Origin: Caulobacteraceae bacterium PMMR1 | Lineage (GTDB): Bacteria; Pseudomonadota; Alphaproteobacteria; Caulobacterales; Caulobacteraceae | Direction of reading: 5' to 3' | Length of the DNA stretch: 64,000 nucleotides | NCBI GenBank assembly: GCA_000733915.1 | Contig: JPOM01000001.1 | Coordinates: 2,108,001 to 2,172,000, forward strand | Shown here: positions 4,997 to 16,473 of the stretch, piece by piece | How the letters are laid out: each line of letters starts with the position of its first letter | Position numbering within the stretch: position 1 is the first letter of the stretch | Position numbers and translations under genes: made by a program | The notes under the pieces: generated by a model | What the model saw: the letters and a program-made list of their open reading frames with translations, nothing else | Databases searched by the model: none | Told to the model about the DNA's origin: nothing

Positions 4997-7191
4997 TCAG
5001 GCCGCGCGCGCCTTGTCCTTGCCGTAGAACCCTTCCCCCTGGGCAGCCATGTCGCGCAGCAGCTGCGGCGGGGCGAAGCGCGGCCCGTAGGCTTGGGCCA
5101 GGCGGTCGCACTCGGCCACGAAGGCGGCCACGCCCACGCTGTCGATGAGGCTGAACGGCCCGCCCGTCCAGGGCGCGAAGCCCCAGCCCAGGATAGCGCC
5201 GACGTCGCCGTCGCGGGGATCGGTCACCACGCGCTCCTCGAAGCAGCGCGCCGCCTCCACCGCCTGGCGATAGAGGAGCCGCGTCTTCAGCTCCTGCACG
5301 AAAGCCGGGGGCGCCTCGGTCATGGTCGGCGTGACCAGCTCCAAGAGGCCCGGCCATAGGCGCTTGGGCCCGCCGTCCGCGGGATAGTCGTAGAAGCCCT
5401 TGCCGTTCTTGCGCCCGTAGCGGCCGAGCTGGACCACCATCTTTTCCAAGAGGGGCTGGAACTTGGGCGCGACATAGGCGTCGCCGAGGTCCTTCTTCGT
5501 CTGCTCGCCGATCTTGTAGGAAAGGTCGAGGGCGACGTCGTCGTTCATCTCCAGCGGACCGCGCGGCATGCCGGTCATGCGGCCGACGTTGTCGATGATC
5601 GCAGGCGCGACGCCCTCCGCCAGCATCTCCAGCCCCTCCTGCACGAAGGTGCCGAAGCAGCGCGAGGTGTAGAAGCCGCGGCTGTCGTTCACCACGATGG
5701 GCGTCTTCTTGATCTTCAGGACATAGTCGATCGACTTGGCCAAAGTCTCCTGGCTGGTCTGCCTGCCCATGATGATCTCGACCAGGCCCATGTTGTCGAC
5801 CGGCGAGAAGAAGTGGATGCCGATGAAGTTGGCCGGCCGCGCGGAGACCTCCGCCAGGCCGGTGATCGGCAGGGTCGAGGTGTTCGATCCGAACACGGCG
5901 GTCTGGGCCAGCTCGGCCTCCGCCTTGCGGGTCACCTCCGCCTTGATTTCGCGGTTCTCGAACACGGCCTCGACCACCAGATCGCAGCCCTTCACCGCCG
6001 CGTAGTCGGCCGTGGCGTGGATGAGGCCCAGCACCGCATCCGCCTTGGCCCGGTCGAGCTTGCCGCGCTTGACCTGCTTCTCGAGCAGCCCCTGCGCGTG
6101 GGACTTGCCCTTCTCGGCGGCCTCGACGGTGACGTCGATCAGCACCGTCTCGATGCCGGCCATGGCCTGGACGTAGGCGATGCCGGCCCCCATCATGCCG
6201 GCGCCGATCACGGCCGCCTTCTTCACGTCGTAGGGCGGCACGTCCTTGGGCCGCGCCGCGCCCTTGCTGAGCTCCTGCATGGACAGGAACAGGCTGCGGA
6301 TCATCGCCCGCGCCTGCGGCTGCTGCAGGGTCTTGACGAAGTAGCGGCTCTCGATGCGCAGGCCCGCGTCGATGGGGACCTGCAGCCCCTCGTAGACGCA
6401 GCTCATGATGTGCTTCTGGGCCGGATAGTTGCCGTAGGACTGCTTGCGCAGCATGGCGTTGCCCATGATGAACACCTGGGCGCCGCCCGGGGTGTAGGGA
6501 CCGCCGCCGGGGATCTTGAAGTCCTTGCGGTCCCAGGGCGCGACCGCATCGCCCTTGGTGCGGATCCAGGCCTTGGCGGCGTCGAGGGCCTGGCCGGGCT
6601 CCACGACCTCGTGCACGACGCCGTTGGCCAGGGCCTCCTCGGCGGTCATGGACTTGCCTTCGAGCAGGTAGGGCAGCGCCTTCATCGCGCCCATGAGCCG
6701 GGGCAGGCGCTGGGTGCCGCCGCCGCCGGGCAGCAGGCCGACCTTGCTCTCCGGCAGGCCGATCTGCAGGCGCGGGCTCTTGGCGGCCACGCGGTAGTGG
6801 CAGGCCAGCGCCAGCTCCAGCCCGCCGCCGAGCGCCAGGCCCTCCAGCGCGACCGCCACCGGCTTGCCGCAGGTCTCCAGCGCCCGGAACACGCGGTTCA
6901 GGGCGCTCGCGCCGTCATAGGCCGCCTTGAGCGCCGCCTCCGGCGCGCGCGCCTCGCCGCCGCCCCCGACTGGCCGCCGAGCTCGCCGAGGTCCGCCCCC
7001 GCGCAGAAGCCCGAGGCCTTGCCGCTCTGGAAGACCGCGCCCTTGATCGCCGGATCGCTGCGGATGCGCTCGATGACGTCGGGCAGCTCGCGCATGACCT
7101 GACCCGTGAGGGTGTTCATCGAGCGGCCGGGCACGTCGAAGGTGACGACCGCGACGCCGTCCGGGTCGACGTCGATCTTGAAGGTGTCCAT
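4997..7191 (-). CDS. fadB: FadB-like enoyl-CoA hydratase / 3-hydroxyacyl-CoA dehydrogenase (frameshifted as given)
   Basis: A bifunctional beta-oxidation protein of about 730 residues. The N-terminal crotonase part (7191 to about 6968) reads [15 protein letters not shown] and [11 protein letters not shown]. After a frame change it resumes with [20 protein letters not shown]. The Rossmann dehydrogenase motif [15 protein letters not shown] and the catalytic region [20 protein letters not shown] follow. The two halves are joined by adding one base in the five-C run at 6963-6967 (plus strand), which restores [16 protein letters not shown] between them. The start at 7191 is preferred because GGAG lies 6 nt upstream of ATG; other starts exist at 7209 and 7236 (a GTG overlapping the thiolase stop). 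It lies in an operon with thiolase and acyl-CoA dehydrogenase. Confidence 0.88.
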
Positions 7192-7232
7192 GGAGCGCTC
7201 CGAGGTCATGAGGGTTCGAGGCCGGTCAGGGG

Positions 7233-8438
<1,206 letters not shown>

Positions 8439-8458: not shown

Positions 8459-9637
8459 TCAGAGGCTTCGCGCGATCAGGATCTTCATGATCTCGTTCGT
8501 GCCGCCGTAGATTCGCTGCACCCGGCTGTCGCGGTACATGCGCGAGATCGGGTACTCGTCCATGAAGCCATAGCCGCCGAAGAGCTGCAGGCACTCGTCG
8601 ACGATCTCGTTTTCGAGGTCGGACACCCAGTACTTGGCCATCGAGGCCAGGGTGGCGTCGAGCTTGCCCTCGAGGTGCAGCTCGATGCAGCGATCAACGA
8701 AGGCGCGGGCGACCGTGGCCTTGGTCTTGCACTCCGCCAGCTTGAACTGGGTGTTCTGGAAGTCGATCAGGCGCTTGCCGAAGGCCTGCCGCTCCTTCAC
8801 GTAGGCGAGGGTCAAGGCCAGCGCCCGCTCGATCGTCGCCATGCCCTGGACGGCGATGTTCAGGCGCTCCTGCGGCAGCTGCTCAATGAGCTGCACGAAC
8901 CCCCGACCCGGGTCGGGCCCGATCAGGTTGGAGGTCGGCACGCGCACGTCGTTGAAGAACAGCTCGGAGGTGTCCTGCGCCGGCTGCCCGAGCTTGTGCA
9001 GGTTGCGCCCGCGCTCGAAGCCCGGGATCGTTCCCTCGGGCCCGTCGTCGGTCTCCACCACGATCAGGCTGGTGCCCTTGGCCCCCGCCGCCGGGTCGGT
9101 CTTGGCGACGACGATGATCAGGTTGGCGGTCTGGCCGTTGGTGATGAAGGTCTTGGAGCCGTTGATGACATAGTTGTTGCCGTCCAGCCGCGCGGTCGTC
9201 TTCACCGACTGCAGGTCGGAGCCCGTGCCGGGCTCGGTCATGGCGATGGCCCCGACGAGCTCGCCACGCGCCATGCGGGGCAGCCACTTGCGGCGCTGCT
9301 CCTCGGAGCCGTAGTGCAGGATGTAGGGCGCGATGATCGCGTTGTGCAGCGAGGCGCCGAAGCCGTCCACGCCCTTCAGGCCGAACTGCTCCATCAGCAC
9401 GACCTCGTGGCGATAGTCGCCGCCCATGCCGCCGTAGGCTTCGGGCACCGACAGGCAGAGCAGGCCCGCCTCGCCGGCCTCGGTCCAGACCTCGCGGTCC
9501 ACCACGCCCTGTTCGCGCCACTTGGCCACGCGGCTCTCCGGCGCGTGCTCGTCGCACCACTTGGCGAGCGAGTTCTCGAACAGGACGATGTCCTCGTCCC
9601 GCATCGCCGCCGTCCGCTCCAGGTTCAGCACGGGCAT
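8459..9637 (-). CDS. acyl-CoA dehydrogenase
   Basis: A 392-residue flavoprotein from ATG 9637, chosen because AAGGTGAG lies just upstream; an in-frame start at 9664 would add nine basic residues. Family signatures are [13 protein letters not shown] (FAD/substrate region), [28 protein letters not shown], and the C-terminal [20 protein letters not shown] and [11 protein letters not shown]. It catalyses alpha,beta-dehydrogenation of acyl-CoA and passes electrons to ETF. It forms a likely operon with thiolase and FadB. Its upstream region is now shared with the divergent methyltransferase gene. Chain-length specificity cannot be read. Confidence 0.93.
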
Positions 9638-9674
9638 TCGCTCACCTTTCGTTCGCAGTCTCACTCAAGCGGTC

Positions 9675-9690
9675 TGGCACCGTTTCTGCA
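9675..9690 (+). promoter_or_regulatory. possible sigma-54-type -24/-12 element before the methyltransferase
   Basis: The string TGGCACCGTTTCTGCA has GG and GC separated by exactly 10 nt and differs from the TGGCACG-N4-TTGCA consensus at two positions. It would start transcription near 9701, ahead of the methyltransferase ATG at 9740. No enhancer-binding site was identified, and sigma-54 control of a restriction-modification system would be unusual, so a chance match is quite possible. Confidence 0.2.
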
Positions 9691-9739
9691 ATCGCCGAGT
9701 TTGCCGGTTCACCGAGACCCGCTAAAGTGCGACTCGCAC

Positions 9740-10588
9740 ATGCACCTCCGCGAACCAGAGCACCGCCCTTTCGAGCACACGCCTGCCGCCCGCCGGTCGC
9801 GCGTTGCGGAGTGGAAGGTTGGCGAACAGCGACTATACCTCGGCGACTGCCTCGAGCTTCTTCCCCGACTGGCCGATAACGTCGTCGATGTGGTCGTGAC
9901 GTCGCCCCCCTACAATTTAGGAATCGCGTACCGCAGCTACGAAGACAGCCTGCCGCGAACCGAGTATCTCGACTGGATGGGGCGGGTAGCGGCGGAGTTG
10001 CGCCGAGTGCTTAAAGCAGACGGATCGTTGTTCCTTAACGTGGGCTCGACAAATGCGGACCCTTGGGTAGCGGCTGATGTTGCCGAGACGTTCCGAAAAC
10101 ACTTCGTGCTCCAGAACCACATCATTTGGGTGAAATCAATCAGCATTGGCGACGACACTGTCGGTCATTTCAAGCCAATAAATAGCCGCCGATTTCTGAA
10201 CCACAGTCACGAGGCAATCTACCACTTCACCACAGAGGGGCGGACTGAGGTAGACCGACTAGCTGTAGGGGTGCCATTCAAGGACAAGAGCAACATCGCG
10301 CGTTGGGGGCATGTGCGCGACAAGCGTTGTGCCGGAGACGTTTGGTTTATCCCTTACCGCACGGTGCAGTCGAAGGCACAAAAGTTCGACCACCCGGCCG
10401 GTTATCCCGTCGAACTCGCGGAGCGCTGCATTCGGCTGCACGGCGTCGAGAAGGCCAAGGTGCTGGACCCTTTCGCGGGCACCGGGACGACACTGGTCGC
10501 GGCCGCAATACTGGGTTGTCAGGGACTCGGCTTCGAGCTGGATGAAGAGTATGCCCGCACGGCGGCGGCGCGGCTAAAGTCGCTCTGA
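9740..10588 (+). CDS. site-specific DNA methyltransferase, beta-class amino-methyltransferase
   Basis: A 282-residue protein. The catalytic motif IV VVTSPPYNLG lies near residue 55, and the AdoMet motif I VLDPFAGTGTTLVAA lies near the C-terminus (about 245). This circular permutation defines beta-class N4-cytosine/N6-adenine methyltransferases. The target-recognition region lies between (HIIWVKSISIGDD to WFIPYRTV). Codon usage is visibly more AT-rich than the flanking beta-oxidation genes, suggesting recent acquisition. It is followed after 5 nt by a small ORF that is a candidate cognate endonuclease. Target site and m4C versus m6A cannot be decided from sequence alone. Confidence 0.88.
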   Translation: MHLREPEHRPFEHTPAARRSRVAEWKVGEQRLYLGDCLELLPRLADNVVDVVVTSPPYNLGIAYRSYEDSLPRTEYLDWMGRVAAELRRVLKADGSLFLNVGSTNADPWVAADVAETFRKHFVLQNHIIWVKSISIGDDTVGHFKPINSRRFLNHSHEAIYHFTTEGRTEVDRLAVGVPFKDKSNIARWGHVRDKRCAGDVWFIPYRTVQSKAQKFDHPAGYPVELAERCIRLHGVEKAKVLDPFAGTGTTLVAAAILGCQGLGFELDEEYARTAAARLKSL

Positions 10589-10593
10589 CCGGA

Positions 10594-11115
10594 ATGGCCC
10601 AGCGGCTGACAATTCTCGAGACGACACTGTCGGCGGAAACCCTTGCCGAAGCGCTTCGGCTGACCCCCGATCAGGTGATCGCAAAGTTCAAGGACCCACG
10701 CATCACCAGCTGGTTTGCCGAGCTATGGGGCGAAAAGTTGTTCGGCTACAGAGCGCACGCGAGCGCCAACCACCCCGGCTCAGACGCCACGATCGCGCTT
10801 GGCGAGATCGGCCGTTTTGAGATCGCGGTGCGGTGCTTCAACACCGGCACTATAAAGTTCCAGAAGTCCAAGTTCATCGGCTCCGGCCGGAGCGCGTCGG
10901 CGGAGGATCTGATCGCGTCCATTGAAGACGTCGAGGTCTACTTGATCGTCGATCTGCGCCGCTTTCCGACCTTGCGCTTCTACCCGCTCGACACCAAGGC
11001 GCTCCTGCGTTTGATCCGCGAGGGTCGACTTACCACCAGCGGCATCTCGCCAGCCCGTTTCGACGCCTGGATCGCGGAACGATTCGAGACTGAGGCTAGA
11101 TTCATCGACCTATAA
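10594..11115 (+). CDS. candidate restriction endonuclease partner of the methyltransferase
   Basis: A 173-residue protein of no confidently recognised family. The central segment SDATIALGEIGRFEIAVRCF, followed by KFQKSKFIGSGRS, has the acidic - acidic - basic pattern of a PD-(D/E)xK-like nuclease core (Asp, Glu and a following Arg/Lys). The phrase KFQ-SKFIGSGR resembles what I recall from small type II endonucleases; this is memory, not a search. The C-terminal part is compact and charged. It is 5 nt downstream of the methyltransferase on the same strand, and its stop is 6 nt from the convergent acyl-CoA dehydrogenase stop. Restriction activity is inferred from the pairing; a regulatory or accessory role is the alternative. 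Confidence 0.5.
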   Translation: MAQRLTILETTLSAETLAEALRLTPDQVIAKFKDPRITSWFAELWGEKLFGYRAHASANHPGSDATIALGEIGRFEIAVRCFNTGTIKFQKSKFIGSGRSASAEDLIASIEDVEVYLIVDLRRFPTLRFYPLDTKALLRLIREGRLTTSGISPARFDAWIAERFETEARFIDL

Positions 11116-11121
11116 GCAGAA

Positions 11122-12906
11122 TCAGAACGCCTCGGCGGGCAGGGCCATCAGCGTCTCCGCCCCGGTCTTCAGCTTGGCGAGGTGGCCGCCGGCGTCGGGC
11201 AGGATGCGCTCCAGGAAGTAGCGCCCGGTCACGAGCTTGGCGGACAGGAACGGGTCGTGGTCGCCCGCAGCGATCCTGGCCTGCGCGGCCTTGGCCATCA
11301 GCAGCCACATGTGCGTCAGCGCCGTCAGGCCGAAGAGGTGCAGGTAGTCGGTGGACGCCGCCCCGGCGTTGTCCGGGTTCTGCAGGCCGTTCTGCATCAG
11401 CCAGTAGGTCGCCTCCTGCAGCTGGGCCTTGGCGTGCTTCAGGCCGTCGACGAACGGCTGCAGGCCGGCGTCGCCCTCGTGCTCGCCGACGAGCTGATCG
11501 ACCTCGGCGAAGTAGCTCATCACCGCGCGCCCGCCGTTCGCCGCCAGCTTGCGGCCCACCAGGTCCAGCGCCTGCACGCCGTTGGCGCCCTCGTAGATCA
11601 GGGTGATGCGGCAGTCGCGCAGGTACTGGCTGGCCGGGAAGTGCTCGGTGAAGCCCGATCCGCCGTGCACCTGCATGGCGTCGGAACAGATCTTGAAGCC
11701 GCGGTCGGTCAGATACGCCTTCACCACGGGCGTCAGCAGGCCCATGTAGTCGCGCGCCTTCTGGGCCTGGGCCTCGTCAGGGCTGTGCTGCAGGTCGCCG
11801 TGCAGCGCGGTCCACAGCATGAAGCAGCGCCCGGCCTCCAGCACCGCCTTGGCGTCCATCAGCATGCGCCGCACGTCCGGATGCACCAGGATCGGGTCGG
11901 CCGGGCCCTCCGGGTTCTTGGGCCCGGTCAGGGAGCGTCCCTGCAGGCGGTCCTTGGCGAACGCCAGCGCCGCCTGATAGGCCGCCTCGCCCTGCGCCAG
12001 ACCCTGCACGCCTACGCCCAGCCGCGCCTCGTTCATCATGACGAACATGGTGCGCAGCCCCTGGTTCTCCTCGCCGACCAGCCAGCCCTTGGCCTCGTCA
12101 TAGACCATGACGCAGGTGGCGTTGCCGTGGATGCCCATCTTCTCCTCCAGGCCCCCGCAGACGAGGCTGTTGCGCTCGCCGGGCTCGCCGTTCGCGTCGG
12201 GGAGGAACTTGGGCACGATGAAGAGGCTGATGCCCTTCACGCCTTGGGGCGCGCCTTCGACCCGGGCCAGGACGAGGTGCACGATGTTCTTGGAAAGGTC
12301 GTGCTCGCCGGCGGAGATCCAGATCTTCTGGCCGCTGATGCGATAGCTGCCGTCCCCGGCGGGCGCGGCCTTGGTGCGGATCAGGCCGAGGTCGGTGCCG
12401 CACTGCGGCTCGGTCAGGTTCATGGTGCCCGACCACTCGCCGGAGACCATCTTGGGCAGGTAAAGCGCCTTTTGCGCATCGGAGCCGCCGGCCCGGATCG
12501 CCTCGTAGGCCCCGTGGGTCAGACCCGGGTACATGCCGAAGGCCATGTTGGCCGATGAGATCATCTCGCTCATGGCGACATTGACCACCGCCGGCAGGCC
12601 CTGGCCGCCGAAGGCGGGGTCGGAGCCTAGCGCGACCCAGCCCCCCTCCACCATCTGGTCGTAGGCCGCCTTGAAGCCCGTCGGCGTCTTGACCGTGTTG
12701 TCCGCAGACCAGACGCAGCCCTCCTTGTCGCCCACCGCGTTCAGGGGCGCCAGGACCTCTTCGACGAACTTGGCGCCCTCGGTCAGGATCGCCTCGACCG
12801 TGTCCATCGACGCGTCGGCGAAGCTCGGCAGGTTGGCGTAGGCCTCGATGTTCAGCACGTCGCGCAGGACGAAGAGGTGCTCGCGGGTGGGGGCGCGGTA
12901 GGTCAT
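11122..12906 (-). CDS. acyl-CoA dehydrogenase, long form with C-terminal extension
   Basis: A 594-residue protein, longer than ordinary acyl-CoA dehydrogenases (about 390) and typical of the subgroup with an extra C-terminal helical domain, including DmdC-type methylthiopropanoyl-CoA dehydrogenases. Signatures are SGTMNLTEPQCGTDLGLIRT, SGQKIWISAGEHDLS, NEARLGVGVQGLAQGEAAYQ and LRDCRITLIYEGANGVQALD, the last with the usual glutamate (YEG). Substrate is uncertain; long- or branched-chain acyl-CoA is more likely than a DMSP product here. It is downstream of a MerR regulator on the same strand and is separated from the rest of the beta-oxidation genes by the restriction-modification island. Confidence 0.92.
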   Translation of the reverse strand: MTYRAPTREHLFVLRDVLNIEAYANLPSFADASMDTVEAILTEGAKFVEEVLAPLNAVGDKEGCVWSADNTVKTPTGFKAAYDQMVEGGWVALGSDPAFGGQGLPAVVNVAMSEMISSANMAFGMYPGLTHGAYEAIRAGGSDAQKALYLPKMVSGEWSGTMNLTEPQCGTDLGLIRTKAAPAGDGSYRISGQKIWISAGEHDLSKNIVHLVLARVEGAPQGVKGISLFIVPKFLPDANGEPGERNSLVCGGLEEKMGIHGNATCVMVYDEAKGWLVGEENQGLRTMFVMMNEARLGVGVQGLAQGEAAYQAALAFAKDRLQGRSLTGPKNPEGPADPILVHPDVRRMLMDAKAVLEAGRCFMLWTALHGDLQHSPDEAQAQKARDYMGLLTPVVKAYLTDRGFKICSDAMQVHGGSGFTEHFPASQYLRDCRITLIYEGANGVQALDLVGRKLAANGGRAVMSYFAEVDQLVGEHEGDAGLQPFVDGLKHAKAQLQEATYWLMQNGLQNPDNAGAASTDYLHLFGLTALTHMWLLMAKAAQARIAAGDHDPFLSAKLVTGRYFLERILPDAGGHLAKLKTGAETLMALPAEAF

Positions 12907-12945
12907 GGGTCTCTGATGCAGGTGGAGGGTCGGCGGGGTCTTAGC

Positions 12946-13437
12946 CTATTTGGCGCGGGCGGGCTCGCCCGTTTCGTGCGCCCCGTCCAGACGGCTGCGC
13001 AGCATGGTGTCGTAGGCGTCGGCCTTGGGCAGGAGGTCGGGGCGGATGTCGGCGAGCTGGCGCTGCAGGCGCTGCACCCCGTCCTCCAGGTTCTTGATGG
13101 CGCCGTCGATGTCCTCGCGCTGGGCCTTCAGCGCCACGATGCGCTCCTTGAACTTCTTGAGCGACTTGGCCATCTGGGCCGCGCCGCCATCCTTCTCGTC
13201 GTAAAGGTCGAGGATTTCGCGGATCTCCGCGAGGGAGAAGCCGACGCGCTTGCCCCTCAAGATCAGCTGCAGCCGCGCCCGATCCCGGTGGCCGTAGACG
13301 CGGTTCATGCCGTCGCGCGCCGGCGCGAGAAGGCCCTTGTCCTCGTAAAAGCGCAGCGCGCGCGGGGTCACTTTGAACTCCACGCACAGCTGGCGGATGG
13401 TGAAGGTGCGCTCCGGGCGCCTCAGGTCGTGGGCCAT
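12946..13437 (-). CDS. MerR-family transcriptional regulator (LiuR-like)
   Basis: A 163-residue protein. The N-terminal winged-helix reads FTIRQLCVEFKVTPRALRFYEDKGLL, the MerR signature. A dimerising coiled-coil follows (about residues 85-140, KSLKKFKERIVALKAQREDI and onward). There are no effector cysteines, so a metal sensor is unlikely. MerR proteins of this size beside acyl-CoA dehydrogenase genes in Proteobacteria (LiuR type) control branched-chain amino acid or fatty acid degradation. The gene starts 39 nt upstream of the dehydrogenase start on the same strand, and an imperfect palindrome lies upstream of its own start. Confidence 0.8.
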   Translation of the reverse strand: MAHDLRRPERTFTIRQLCVEFKVTPRALRFYEDKGLLAPARDGMNRVYGHRDRARLQLILRGKRVGFSLAEIREILDLYDEKDGGAAQMAKSLKKFKERIVALKAQREDIDGAIKNLEDGVQRLQRQLADIRPDLLPKADAYDTMLRSRLDGAHETGEPARAK

Positions 13438-13737
13438 GCCGCATCATCCGTTCGTCGCGGTTTCCCGCGGGTCGGGCGCAGCTAACCTCCCGCTTACGTC
13501 AACGTCAACAAAAGTCGCGAGGCTTCCCCAACGTCACGGCTTCAAACCCGGGCGAGCGACTCCCAAATAGCGGAGCGGAGGAGCGACATCGTGCTGTGGG
13601 GCGTCGCCTTGGCAAGCCGCGGTTCCGGGTCTATGCGGGCGCCACGCAACGCCGGACCCGCGCCCCGACCCGCTGAGTCGGCCGCTGCGGGCGCGTCTGC
13701 AGGCATTCGGATCGGAGACGAGCACGTCGTGAGGGAC
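13438..13737. other. intergenic region between merR-type gene and ctaC
   Basis: About 300 bp between divergent genes. Besides the ACGT palindrome at 13493-13508, no convincing ORF was seen; an in-frame upward extension of ctaC (from 13591) gives a low-complexity Arg/Ala/Pro-rich leader with no signal-peptide logic. The promoters of both genes must lie here, but no clear -35/-10 pair was assigned. Confidence 0.5.
13493..13508 (-). promoter_or_regulatory. candidate MerR/LiuR operator
   Basis: Read on the minus strand the site is TTGACGTTGACGTAAG, an imperfect inverted repeat (TTGACGT and ACGTAAG around a 2-nt centre). It lies 56 nt upstream of the MerR gene start. This fits the general ACGT-centred palindromes I recall for LiuR-type regulators. 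It suggests autoregulation together with the downstream dehydrogenase. Confidence 0.4.
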
Positions 13738-14756
13738 ATGATTGGGTTCGCGCAGCGTTGGGCGTCCAGGATCGGCGCCGGGCTCGCGTCGGGGGTGCTG
13801 GCCATGGCCGCCGCCCCGGCCTTCGCTGCAGGCGTCTTGGGCCAGCCCACGGACGGGGGCATCGGTCTGCAGCCCGCGGGCTCCTCGCTCCGCCACGAGG
13901 CGATCTATTTCCACGACGCGGTGCTGCTGCCGATCATCGTCGGCATCTCCCTGTTCGTGCTGTTCCTGCTGCTCTGGACCATGTTCCGCTACAACAAGCG
14001 GGCCAATCCGGTCCCGGCGAAGTGGAGCCACAACACGCCCATCGAGGTCCTTTGGACCGTCGTGCCGGTGCTGCTCCTGATGTTCATCGCGGTGTTCAGC
14101 TTCCGCCTGCTGTTCGCCTATCACGACATGCCCAAGCCCGACCTGACGGTGAAGGTGACCGGCAACCAGTGGTACTGGAACTACGAGTATCCGCAGAACG
14201 GCGACTTCGCCTTCGACAGCCTGGTGCTGCCTGAGGACAAGGCCAAGGCGCAGGGCGTGCCCTTCAAGCTCGCCGTCGACAAGCCGATGGTCGTGCCGGT
14301 GGGCAAGACGGTGCAGGTGCTGATCACCGGCGCCGACGTGCTGCACGCCTGGTTCCTGCCGGCCTTCGGCATTCAGGAGACCGCCGTCCCGGGCCGCGTG
14401 AACCAGGCCTGGTTCCGCGCGGAGAAGCCCGGCGTCTACTACGGCCAGTGCACCGAGCTCTGCGGCGTGGACCACGCCTTCATGCCGATCGAGGTCGACG
14501 TCGTGGACCAGGCCAAATTCGACGCCTGGGTGGCGGCGCACGCCGCCAAGCCGGCGGCCCCGACCGCCCCCGCGGCGGCCACGACCCCTCCAGGCGCGAC
14601 GGGCGCGGCGGCGGCTGCTAAGGGGGCAGCGCCGGTCGGCTCGAACGCGGCCGCCCCGCCCCGCCGCCTGCGGCCAGCACGCCGCCCGCGGTCCAGACCA
14701 GTCCCAACAAGCCCGCCAACGTCGCCGCCGCACAGCCGGCGGCGGGCCGCGGCTGA
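13738..14756 (+). CDS. ctaC: cytochrome c oxidase subunit II (frameshifted near 3' end as given)
   Basis: The CuA-binding subunit of the aa3-type oxidase. A signal peptide ([13 protein letters not shown] to APAFAAG) and two transmembrane helices ([38 protein letters not shown]) precede the cupredoxin domain. That domain carries [10 protein letters not shown], the conserved His in DVLHAWFLP and the CuA motif [16 protein letters not shown]. As written the frame runs without a stop into ctaD through an Arg-rich stretch. Adding one C in the run at 14659-14662 instead gives an Ala/Pro tail ending PAAGRG and a TGA at 14754-14756. I therefore call a separate subunit II with a single-base lesion. The ATG 13738 start gives a normal signal peptide. 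Confidence 0.9.
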
Positions 14757-14787
14757 TCGCACACGAGTCGAGCAAAGGCGTTACACC

Positions 14788-16473
14788 ATGGCCACCTCGC
14801 ACGCAGCGGCCCACGGCGCACACGGGCACGACGCCCATGACGTCGATCACAAGCCGCCCTTCCTGATCCGCTGGTTCTTCTCGACCAACCACAAGGACAT
14901 CGGCACGCTCTATCTGCTGTTCGCCATCATGGCGGGCCTGGTGGGCGGCATCCTGTCCGGCCTGATCCGCTGGGAGCTGGCCGAGCCGGGCCTGCAGGTG
15001 TTCCGTCCGGGATCGCTGATGGCCCAGGTCCTGGGCTGGGCGATCGAGCCCTCCAAGCACGGCTACAACGTCGTGATCACCGCGCACGGCCTGATCATGA
15101 TCTTCTTCATGGTCATGCCCGCCATGATCGGCGGCTTCGGCAACTGGTTCGTTCCGATCATGATCGGCGCGCCGGACATGGCCTTCCCGCGCATGAACAA
15201 CATCTCGTTCTGGCTGCTGGTGGCGTCGTTCACCCTTTTGGTCTGCTCCATGTTCGCCGACGGCGGGCCGGGGCGAGGCGTCGGCGCGGGCTGGACGCTC
15301 TATGCGCCGCTGTCCACCACCGGGCACACCGGGCCGGCGATGGACTTCGCCATCCTGTCCATCCACCTGGCGGGGGCCAGCTCGATCCTGGGCGCGATCA
15401 ACTTCATCACCACCATCTTCAACATGCGCGCGCCGGGGATGACCATCCACCGCATGCCGCTGTTCGTGTGGTCGGTGCTGGTCACCGCCTTCCTGCTGCT
15501 GCTGTCCTTGCCGGTGCTCGCGGGCGCGATCACCATGCTGCTCACCGATCGCAACTTCGGCACCAGCTTCTTCAATCCGCAGGGCGGCGGCGACCCGCTG
15601 ATGTACCAGCACCTGTTCTGGTTCTTCGGCCACCCTGAGGTCTACATCCTGATCCTGCCGGGCTTCGGCATCATCAGCCACGTGGTCTCCACCTTCTCGA
15701 AGAAGCCGGTGTTCGGCTACCTCGCCATGGCCTACGCCATGGTCGCCATCGGCTTCGTCGGCTTCGTCGTGTGGGCGCACCACATGTTCACGACCGGCAT
15801 CAACGTGAACCTACAAGCCTATTTCGTGGCCGCGACCATGATCATCGCCGTCCCCACGGGGGTGAAGATCTTCTCGTGGATCGCGACCATGTGGGGCGGG
15901 TCGATCGAGTTCAAAGTGCCCATGCTGTGGGCGATCGGCTTCATCTTCCTGTTCACCATCGGCGGCGTCACCGGCGTCGTGCTGGCCAACGCCGGAATCG
16001 ACTATTCGCTGCACGGGACCTACTACGTGGTGGCTCACTTCCACTACGTGCTGAGCCTGGGCGCAGTGTTCGCCATCTTCGCAGGTTGGTACTACTGGTT
16101 CGAGAAAATGTGGGGCGTCAAGTACAACGGCGTGCTGGGCGGCCTGCACTTCTGGTTCATGTTCGTCGGCGTCAACGTCATTTTCATGCCGCAGCACTTC
16201 CTGGGGCTGCAGGGCATGCCGCGGCGCTACGTCGACTATCCGGAAGCGTTCACCTTCTGGAACAAGGTGTCGTCCTGGGGCTATCCGATCATGGCCGTCG
16301 GCATGGCCTTCTTCCTCGCCGTGTGCCTGGAGGCCGCCATCCGTCGCCGCAAGGCCGAGGCGAACCCCTGGGGCGAGGGCGCCACGACGCTGGAGTGGAC
16401 CCTGCCCTCGCCGCCGCCCTTCCACCAGTTCAACGAGCTGCCGGTGATCCACTCCGAGACGCACGCGAGCTAG
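14788..16473 (+). CDS. ctaD: cytochrome c oxidase subunit I
   Basis: A 561-residue heme-copper oxidase catalytic subunit with about twelve membrane helices. Ligand-bearing segments are visible: [20 protein letters not shown] (heme a His), [20 protein letters not shown] (CuB His and cross-linked Tyr), [10 protein letters not shown] (CuB His pair) and [17 protein letters not shown] (heme ligands). The N-terminus is His-rich ([14 protein letters not shown]). It reduces oxygen to water at the inner membrane with proton pumping. It is 31 nt after the corrected ctaC stop. No ctaB, ctaG or ctaE follows; a strong terminator and a convergent gene come next. Confidence 0.97.

Follow-up and report, generated by a model that had tools for sequence, protein, structure and literature searches.

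RsaI, from Rhodobacter blasticus 28/5, is a restriction-modification (R-M) system of linked genes acting at GT^AC, in which the methyltransferase, M.RsaI, gives m4C at GTAC (PMC6256690) and the endonuclease, R.RsaI, leaves blunt GT/AC ends (PMC4357717). The R.PabI restriction glycosylase family, also with a linked methyltransferase, has the same presumed target, GTAC, as the locus described below, and M.PabI makes m6A (PMC4357717). Gene pairs are carried by the Synechococcus phages Syn19 and ACG-2014j as well, with endonucleases that were named "R.RsaI endonuclease" by the depositors, and PvuII is a small restriction enzyme of the PD-(D/E)XK type. Movement of R-M units that have no mobile element linked to them is described (Furuta, Abe and Kobayashi 2010, cited in both PMC3874152 and PMC3031569), the target duplications being short in some cases and long in others (PMC3874152, PMC3031569). 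Methylation of a cognate site can control the M promoter in which it lies; CfrBI is among the references for this (PMC3874152).

The window referred to in this study is the whole 64,000-nucleotide stretch of Caulobacteraceae bacterium PMMR1 DNA that was analysed. It contains a methyltransferase gene (M) and, 5 nt after the M stop, the start of a putative endonuclease gene (R), the two being oriented head-on to a cluster of beta-oxidation genes (Table 1). Very probably, the pair is a compact, horizontally acquired Type II R-M cassette (M then R, RsaI-like, probably directed at GTAC), inserted between the long and short acyl-CoA dehydrogenase (ACAD) genes of a conserved MerR-ACAD-ACAD-thiolase-FadB cluster. 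This is a known kind of genome event, of which the locus is a good example, and the RsaI-like cassette is found also in unrelated bacteria and phage-like DNA. Like RsaI, it has an amino-methylating M and linked genes; like the mobile units mentioned above, it is a bare unit in an ordinary chromosomal setting. The Syn19 and ACG-2014j pairs resemble it in having an M that is 44.6% and 48.6% identical, respectively, to that of the window, and a homologous R, but differ in that R precedes M and that R keeps the E-x-K motif. If active, the cassette would be expected to work as follows: host sites would be marked by the methyltransferase (m4C at GTAC, as M.RsaI does), incoming DNA that lacks the mark would be cut by the small endonuclease, and with M ahead of R, probably in a shared transcript, protection would precede cutting.

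Table 1. Features of the cassette and of the surrounding beta-oxidation cluster (positions in the window).
Feature	Position	Strand	Evidence or remark
M gene, amino DNA methyltransferase, 282 aa	9740..10588	+	Pfam PF01555, PADLOC MTase_II
R gene, putative RsaI-like Type II restriction endonuclease, 173 aa	10594..11115	+	PADLOC REase_II, phmmer, structure model
6-nt junction between R gene stop and convergent long ACAD stop	11116..11121		sequence
Divergent spacer, 102 nt, between short ACAD start and M start	9638..9739		any new promoters would lie here
MerR-family regulator, first gene of the cluster	12946..13437	-	Pfam MerR_1, E 3.3e-17
Long acyl-CoA dehydrogenase, 594 aa, before the insertion as the cluster is read	11122..12906	-	Pfam
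Short acyl-CoA dehydrogenase, 392 aa, beyond the insertion as the cluster is read	8459..9637	-	Pfam
Acetyl-CoA C-acetyltransferase (thiolase)	7233..8438	-	NCBIfam NF006090, 724 bits (cut-off 514)
FadB-like multifunctional protein, in two frames (6898-7236 and 4997-6892)	4997..7236	-	Pfam ECH_1, 3HCDH_N, 3HCDH

A sequence-only reading of the window had described the two genes as an R-M-like pair, AT-richer in codon choice than the genes around it and lying 6 nt from a neighbour's stop. Each of these points was borne out: both open reading frames are in place, with N6_N4_Mtase and REase_II matches and cyanophage homologs; GC3 is 0.70 and 0.78 in the pair as against 0.92-0.96 in the two FadB pieces, the thiolase and both ACADs, with GC at 60% versus 67-72% in the same neighbours; and the stop codons of R and of the 594-residue ACAD are 6 nt apart. 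M matches the Pfam family N6_N4_Mtase (PF01555) above its cut-off (E 1.3e-47) and the PADLOC Type II methyltransferase model MTase_II (PDLC03295; E 1.5e-88), and it is 61-66% identical to the M proteins of linked pairs at three other loci, L034, L035 and L037. In its translation a TSPPY motif precedes a FAGTG motif (DPFAGTG); we take these to be the amino methyltransferase motifs and, from their order, presume that M belongs to the beta class. A search of 9500-11300 for sigma-70-type promoter patterns returned none, although in an organism of this kind such a result counts for little, and no unusual fold was seen in the divergent spacer (z -1.16), whose edge at the short ACAD start was fixed by homologs aligned from residue 1. 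Two more N6_N4 methyltransferase domains are present in the same genome (G000:C1:1604801-1605466 and 1786288-1786998).

The pair occurs elsewhere as a linked unit. A scan of genome contigs with short exact peptide patterns, by which distant relatives are missed, yielded two relatives, one in Acidisoma cellulosilyticum (L034) and one in an Acetobacteraceae metagenome-assembled genome (L035), with M directly before R in both; two more, L037 (R 69% identical in the best segment) and L063, were found among IMG/VR contigs. At all four loci the order is M then R, with the genes overlapping or nearly touching. When both proteins of the window were compared with those of L034, L035 and L037, R was 61-68% and M 61-65% identical, that is, the two are similarly identical to each relative, as expected if they travel together. 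To one side of the L034 cassette are an integrase and a CAP12/Pycsar-type TIR protein, and to the other a nucleotidyltransferase, a WYL protein and a weak cyclase-domain match; L037 adjoins genes for the large and small terminase subunits and an IS1595-type transposase remnant; and the next gene at L035 encodes a short-chain dehydrogenase. The settings at L034 and L037 are thus of a mobile or defence-like character. As the surroundings differ each time, M plus R looks like a moving unit, and the locus offers a clean natural example of an R-M system that travels among bacteria and phage-like DNA with its two genes alone. The Acidisoma locus is a possible defence island (L034:1617-9317), the R-M cassette included.

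Related methyltransferases are also found with no R relative in the flanks covered. This applies to the two phage M genes that score higher than those of Syn19 and ACG-2014j, from the uncultured phage LR756511 (52.1%) and from ACG-2014f (50.6%), and no R relative was present in the flanks covered at any of nine loci with a related M (L042, L043, L044, L045, L051, L052, L053, L064 and L065). L051, L052 and L053 come from three genomes of one other family of the class, and two Paracoccus plasmids likewise carry a related M with no R relative in the flanks, one of these M genes being partial and one plasmid-borne M adjoining an IS4 transposase. The M genes at L051, L052 and L053 appear to be orphan methyltransferases and adjoin MltA-like genes (names assigned by eye).

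How the cassette entered can be considered from its junctions. The sequence-only reading had suggested looking for direct repeats at the insertion points, and none beyond chance was found: between 9638-9745 and 11086-11150 the longest shared word is 5 nt in direct orientation (chance centres on 6-7 nt) and 7 nt in inverted orientation. In this respect the window differs from the cases with target duplications, short or long, in PMC3874152 and PMC3031569. It is conceivable, if doubtful, that the cassette arrived not by bare end-joining but with a transposon, an integron or a prophage, the other parts of which have since gone; in favour of this, its relatives have an integrase nearby (L034) or terminase genes together with a transposase remnant (L037). 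However, there is no tRNA in the window, the junctions hold no repeat beyond chance, and the neighbouring genes are reached again after 6 nt at one end and 102 nt at the other. Both plain illegitimate joining, which would have left no mobile-element scar, and loss of a carrier and of a duplication fit the present structure.

R matches the PADLOC model REase_II (PDLC03550) weakly (E 8.9e-4); the same model recognizes four of the five relatives tested (Syn19, 1.6e-11; ACG-2014j, 0.0014; L034, 4.8e-7; L037, 1.8e-7), missing the R of L035. In phmmer searches of a small sequence set, the window R found Syn19-type proteins at 1.8e-6 to 1.9e-5 and no match to the ACG-2014j type, and the R of L034 found Syn19-type proteins at about 6e-12. 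From these sequence links, the window R is a distant relative of the cyanophage proteins, with 16-24% identity only; its likeness to RsaI comes through these proteins and the name their depositors gave them, not through the sequence of R.RsaI. Other searches with R gave little: no Pfam family above cut-off (DUF6522 reached 19.4 bits, below the cut-off of 25), no NCBIfam match, nothing in PHROGs, and only chance kinase matches among solved-structure sequences in single-sequence and profile searches. By tblastn at E <= 0.01 the window R had no match in the phage and plasmid collections, a search that was not sensitive, as it missed even the cyanophage relatives in the phage collection; the Syn19 R had no match in plasmids.

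A structure model of R built from 16 sequences had a pLDDT of 76.8, with residues 53-75 below 50. PvuII was its top Foldseek match (E 0.061; none at or below 0.001), and VIA-align gave I-Ssp6803I (Z 7.2, rmsd 3.5 over 114 residues), Eco15I and NhoI (both Z 7.0) and PvuII (Z 6.8, rmsd 4.2 over 114 residues). The VIA-align matches are mostly restriction enzymes and junction resolvases, which we take to be mostly nucleases of the PD-(D/E)XK fold, and all have Z below 8, scores that alone could reflect a common arrangement. PvuII is similar in size to the window R, but identity is about 15%, the catalytic residues differ and the scores are in the common-arrangement range. No PabI, with its half-pipe fold, appeared among the 50 structural matches listed for the model, which does not exclude a likeness to PabI. 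The best reading of the structure scores and sequence links is that R is a PD-(D/E)XK-like restriction enzyme.

The predicted active site, compared by alignment, is the most distinctive part of the cassette. D64 is invariant in all 16 aligned R sequences; in the model it belongs to the stretch whose pLDDT is below 50, so that the geometry of the site is a prediction. On the strand after D64, the cyanophage-type proteins have V/I/Y-E-x-K, the usual ExK, at positions 78-80, whereas the window R has E76, A78 and R80. The window, L034, L035 and L037 proteins all read E/D-I-A/S/G-V-R in this region, i.e., these four close cassettes have the acid two residues upstream and arginine in place of the catalytic lysine, and the IMG/VR protein of L063 reads E-V-S-V-K (the starts of the L063 and L037 proteins in the alignment were picked by eye). 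As the canonical D...(D/E)xK residues are not present in the window R, we do not list it as a proven PD-(D/E)XK member.

With R80 and A78 replacing the catalytic lysine and the ExK acid of the cyanophage-type homologs, the window R may be inactive. M alone would then be an orphan-like epigenetic marker and R a dead, or merely DNA-binding, remnant, and the related M genes that stand without an R relative (three genomes of another family, the two Paracoccus plasmids, LR756511 and ACG-2014f) are in keeping with this. We nevertheless consider it unlikely, for the following reasons: the same altered form of R (acid two upstream, small residue, V, R) is present in all four close cassettes, which come from different sources; pN among these is far below pS, both in R (0.22-0.27 versus 0.63-0.88) and in M (0.23-0.28 versus 0.67-0.83), which argues for function rather than decay, as a dead gene would not be so kept; and variants of the PD-(D/E)XK superfamily with moved or replaced residues are described in PMC1189080. 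The reading of the locus as an R-M cassette with presumed enzyme activity is retained, and the possibility that arginine can replace the catalytic lysine in such enzymes could be tested directly on this clade of R proteins.

In 464 kb of the own genome the observed/expected ratio of GTAC is 0.64, compared with 0.67, 0.72, 0.76 and 0.94 in four relatives; GTAC avoidance was set aside as evidence for the target, the site being under-represented in relatives too. GTAC lies before the M start at -60 in L034 (with three more within 150 nt), at -62 in L035 and at -54 in L037, in each case at a possible -35 element as judged by eye; these three share descent and are not independent. At the cyanophage-type loci L040, L054 and L050, GTAC overlaps a -10-like element before R (by eye), and L060 has an upstream GTAC at -106 only. 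At four of the seven M-first loci examined (the window, L063, L042 and L052) the 200 nt before the M start hold no GTAC, nor do the 200 nt upstream at L041 and L046. The presence of GTAC in promoter-like positions of several RsaI-like cassettes, and its absence from the window copy and several others, is suggestive only. Taking the active site and promoter observations jointly, one could picture a working RsaI-like clade with a rebuilt active site (acid at E/D76, Arg for Lys) and with cognate GTAC in the relatives' promoters, the system being tuned by its own methylation and this control having been lost by the window copy on insertion; we regard this as a speculative reading that is improbable in its entirety.

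The host cluster was compared with 20 relatives' loci, i.e., 20 of the 35 family genomes. The MerR gene is present in all 20, and each of the 60 genomes searched gave a match to the long ACAD at E <= 0.001, a count in which paralogs are included. The open reading frame 12941-13447 was rejected as the MerR gene of the window because of its wrong codon-position composition, the Pfam match being to 12946-13437. The long and short ACAD genes are adjacent at 13 of the 20 loci, with spacers of 80, 36, 46, 2, 2, 93, 39, 39, 3, 2, 2, 147 and 2 nt (for two of them, L091 and L093, the start was extrapolated from an alignment beginning at residue 9 or 4), and four loci (L077, L084, L086 and L091) are collinear down to FadB. 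At the other seven the short ACAD is not next to the long one, so that the cluster itself varies. Neither M nor R is present at any of the 20 loci, and among 30 shorter loci (1.5 kb flanks) the pair is in the own locus only; in this shorter set the thiolase directly follows the long ACAD at L018 and L023. The empty site was seen in other genera of the family only.

In the order, M was found at E <= 1e-30 in one of 398 genomes, the own one, and in the class at E <= 1e-40 in four of 385, i.e., the own genome and three orphans. R was found at E <= 0.001 in three of the 398, two of which were judged to be chance matches and rejected: the R-like stretch at L032 runs antisense inside a long outer-membrane-efflux-like gene, and that at L033 (the same place as L039) antisense inside a long dehydrogenase-like gene (both names assigned by eye). 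In a search of the phylum, a three-sequence R profile returned, among the 398, the own genome and one antisense chance place. Comparison with relatives had been proposed in the sequence-only reading, and what it revealed, an uninterrupted cluster at 13 of 20 loci and no family-wide conservation of the pair, agrees with the clean insertion claimed there, as do the absence of the pair from the other 397 of 398 genomes of the order and its foreign composition. That the pair is instead an old resident lost from relatives is highly improbable, for although the junction varies in seven of the 20 relatives and the genomes compared are of other genera, the pair would have to have been lost from all of the other 397 genomes sampled in the order, and this would leave unexplained both the low GC3 and the fact that both matches of the genome-contig scan are from Acetobacteraceae. 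It is well supported that an R-M cassette of horizontal origin was inserted here: from the sequence comparisons, the family has long had the cluster, and the pair arrived later.

The genes flanking the pair (MerR, long ACAD, ACAD, thiolase and FadB) are as had been described; to this it can be added that FadB is not intact in the window but lies in two frames. In all four relatives examined, FadB is a single open reading frame of 729-733 residues; its split in the window is a true frameshift or an assembly indel. About 8 kb from this split, 13591-16470 (+) is one 960-residue open reading frame joining cytochrome oxidase subunits II and I through an arginine/proline-rich linker, while L076 and L084 have a stop between the two subunits; the joined frame is either a fusion or an indel error. 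Base-level assembly errors would be a simple explanation for both.

It had also been suggested that beta-oxidation regulation was rewired by the insertion. In the window, the converging cassette and the 102-nt divergent spacer do separate the two ACADs, which in relatives are 2 to 147 nt apart and, where the spacer is 2-3 nt, very likely share one transcript. At L087, however, a terminator-like hairpin with a T-rich tail (L087:7327-7357, - strand; z -3.7) lies between the long and short ACAD. The cluster may therefore not form a single transcription unit in every relative, and separate transcription of the downstream half may not require an insertion. Strong hairpins were also seen at L077 (z -3.9) and L093 (z -9.1), a scan of L077 finding no terminator pattern. 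Rewiring of beta-oxidation regulation by the cassette, with any effect on downstream transcription, is thus a possibility. The cassette has landed inside a metabolic gene cluster for which uninterrupted relatives are available for comparison.
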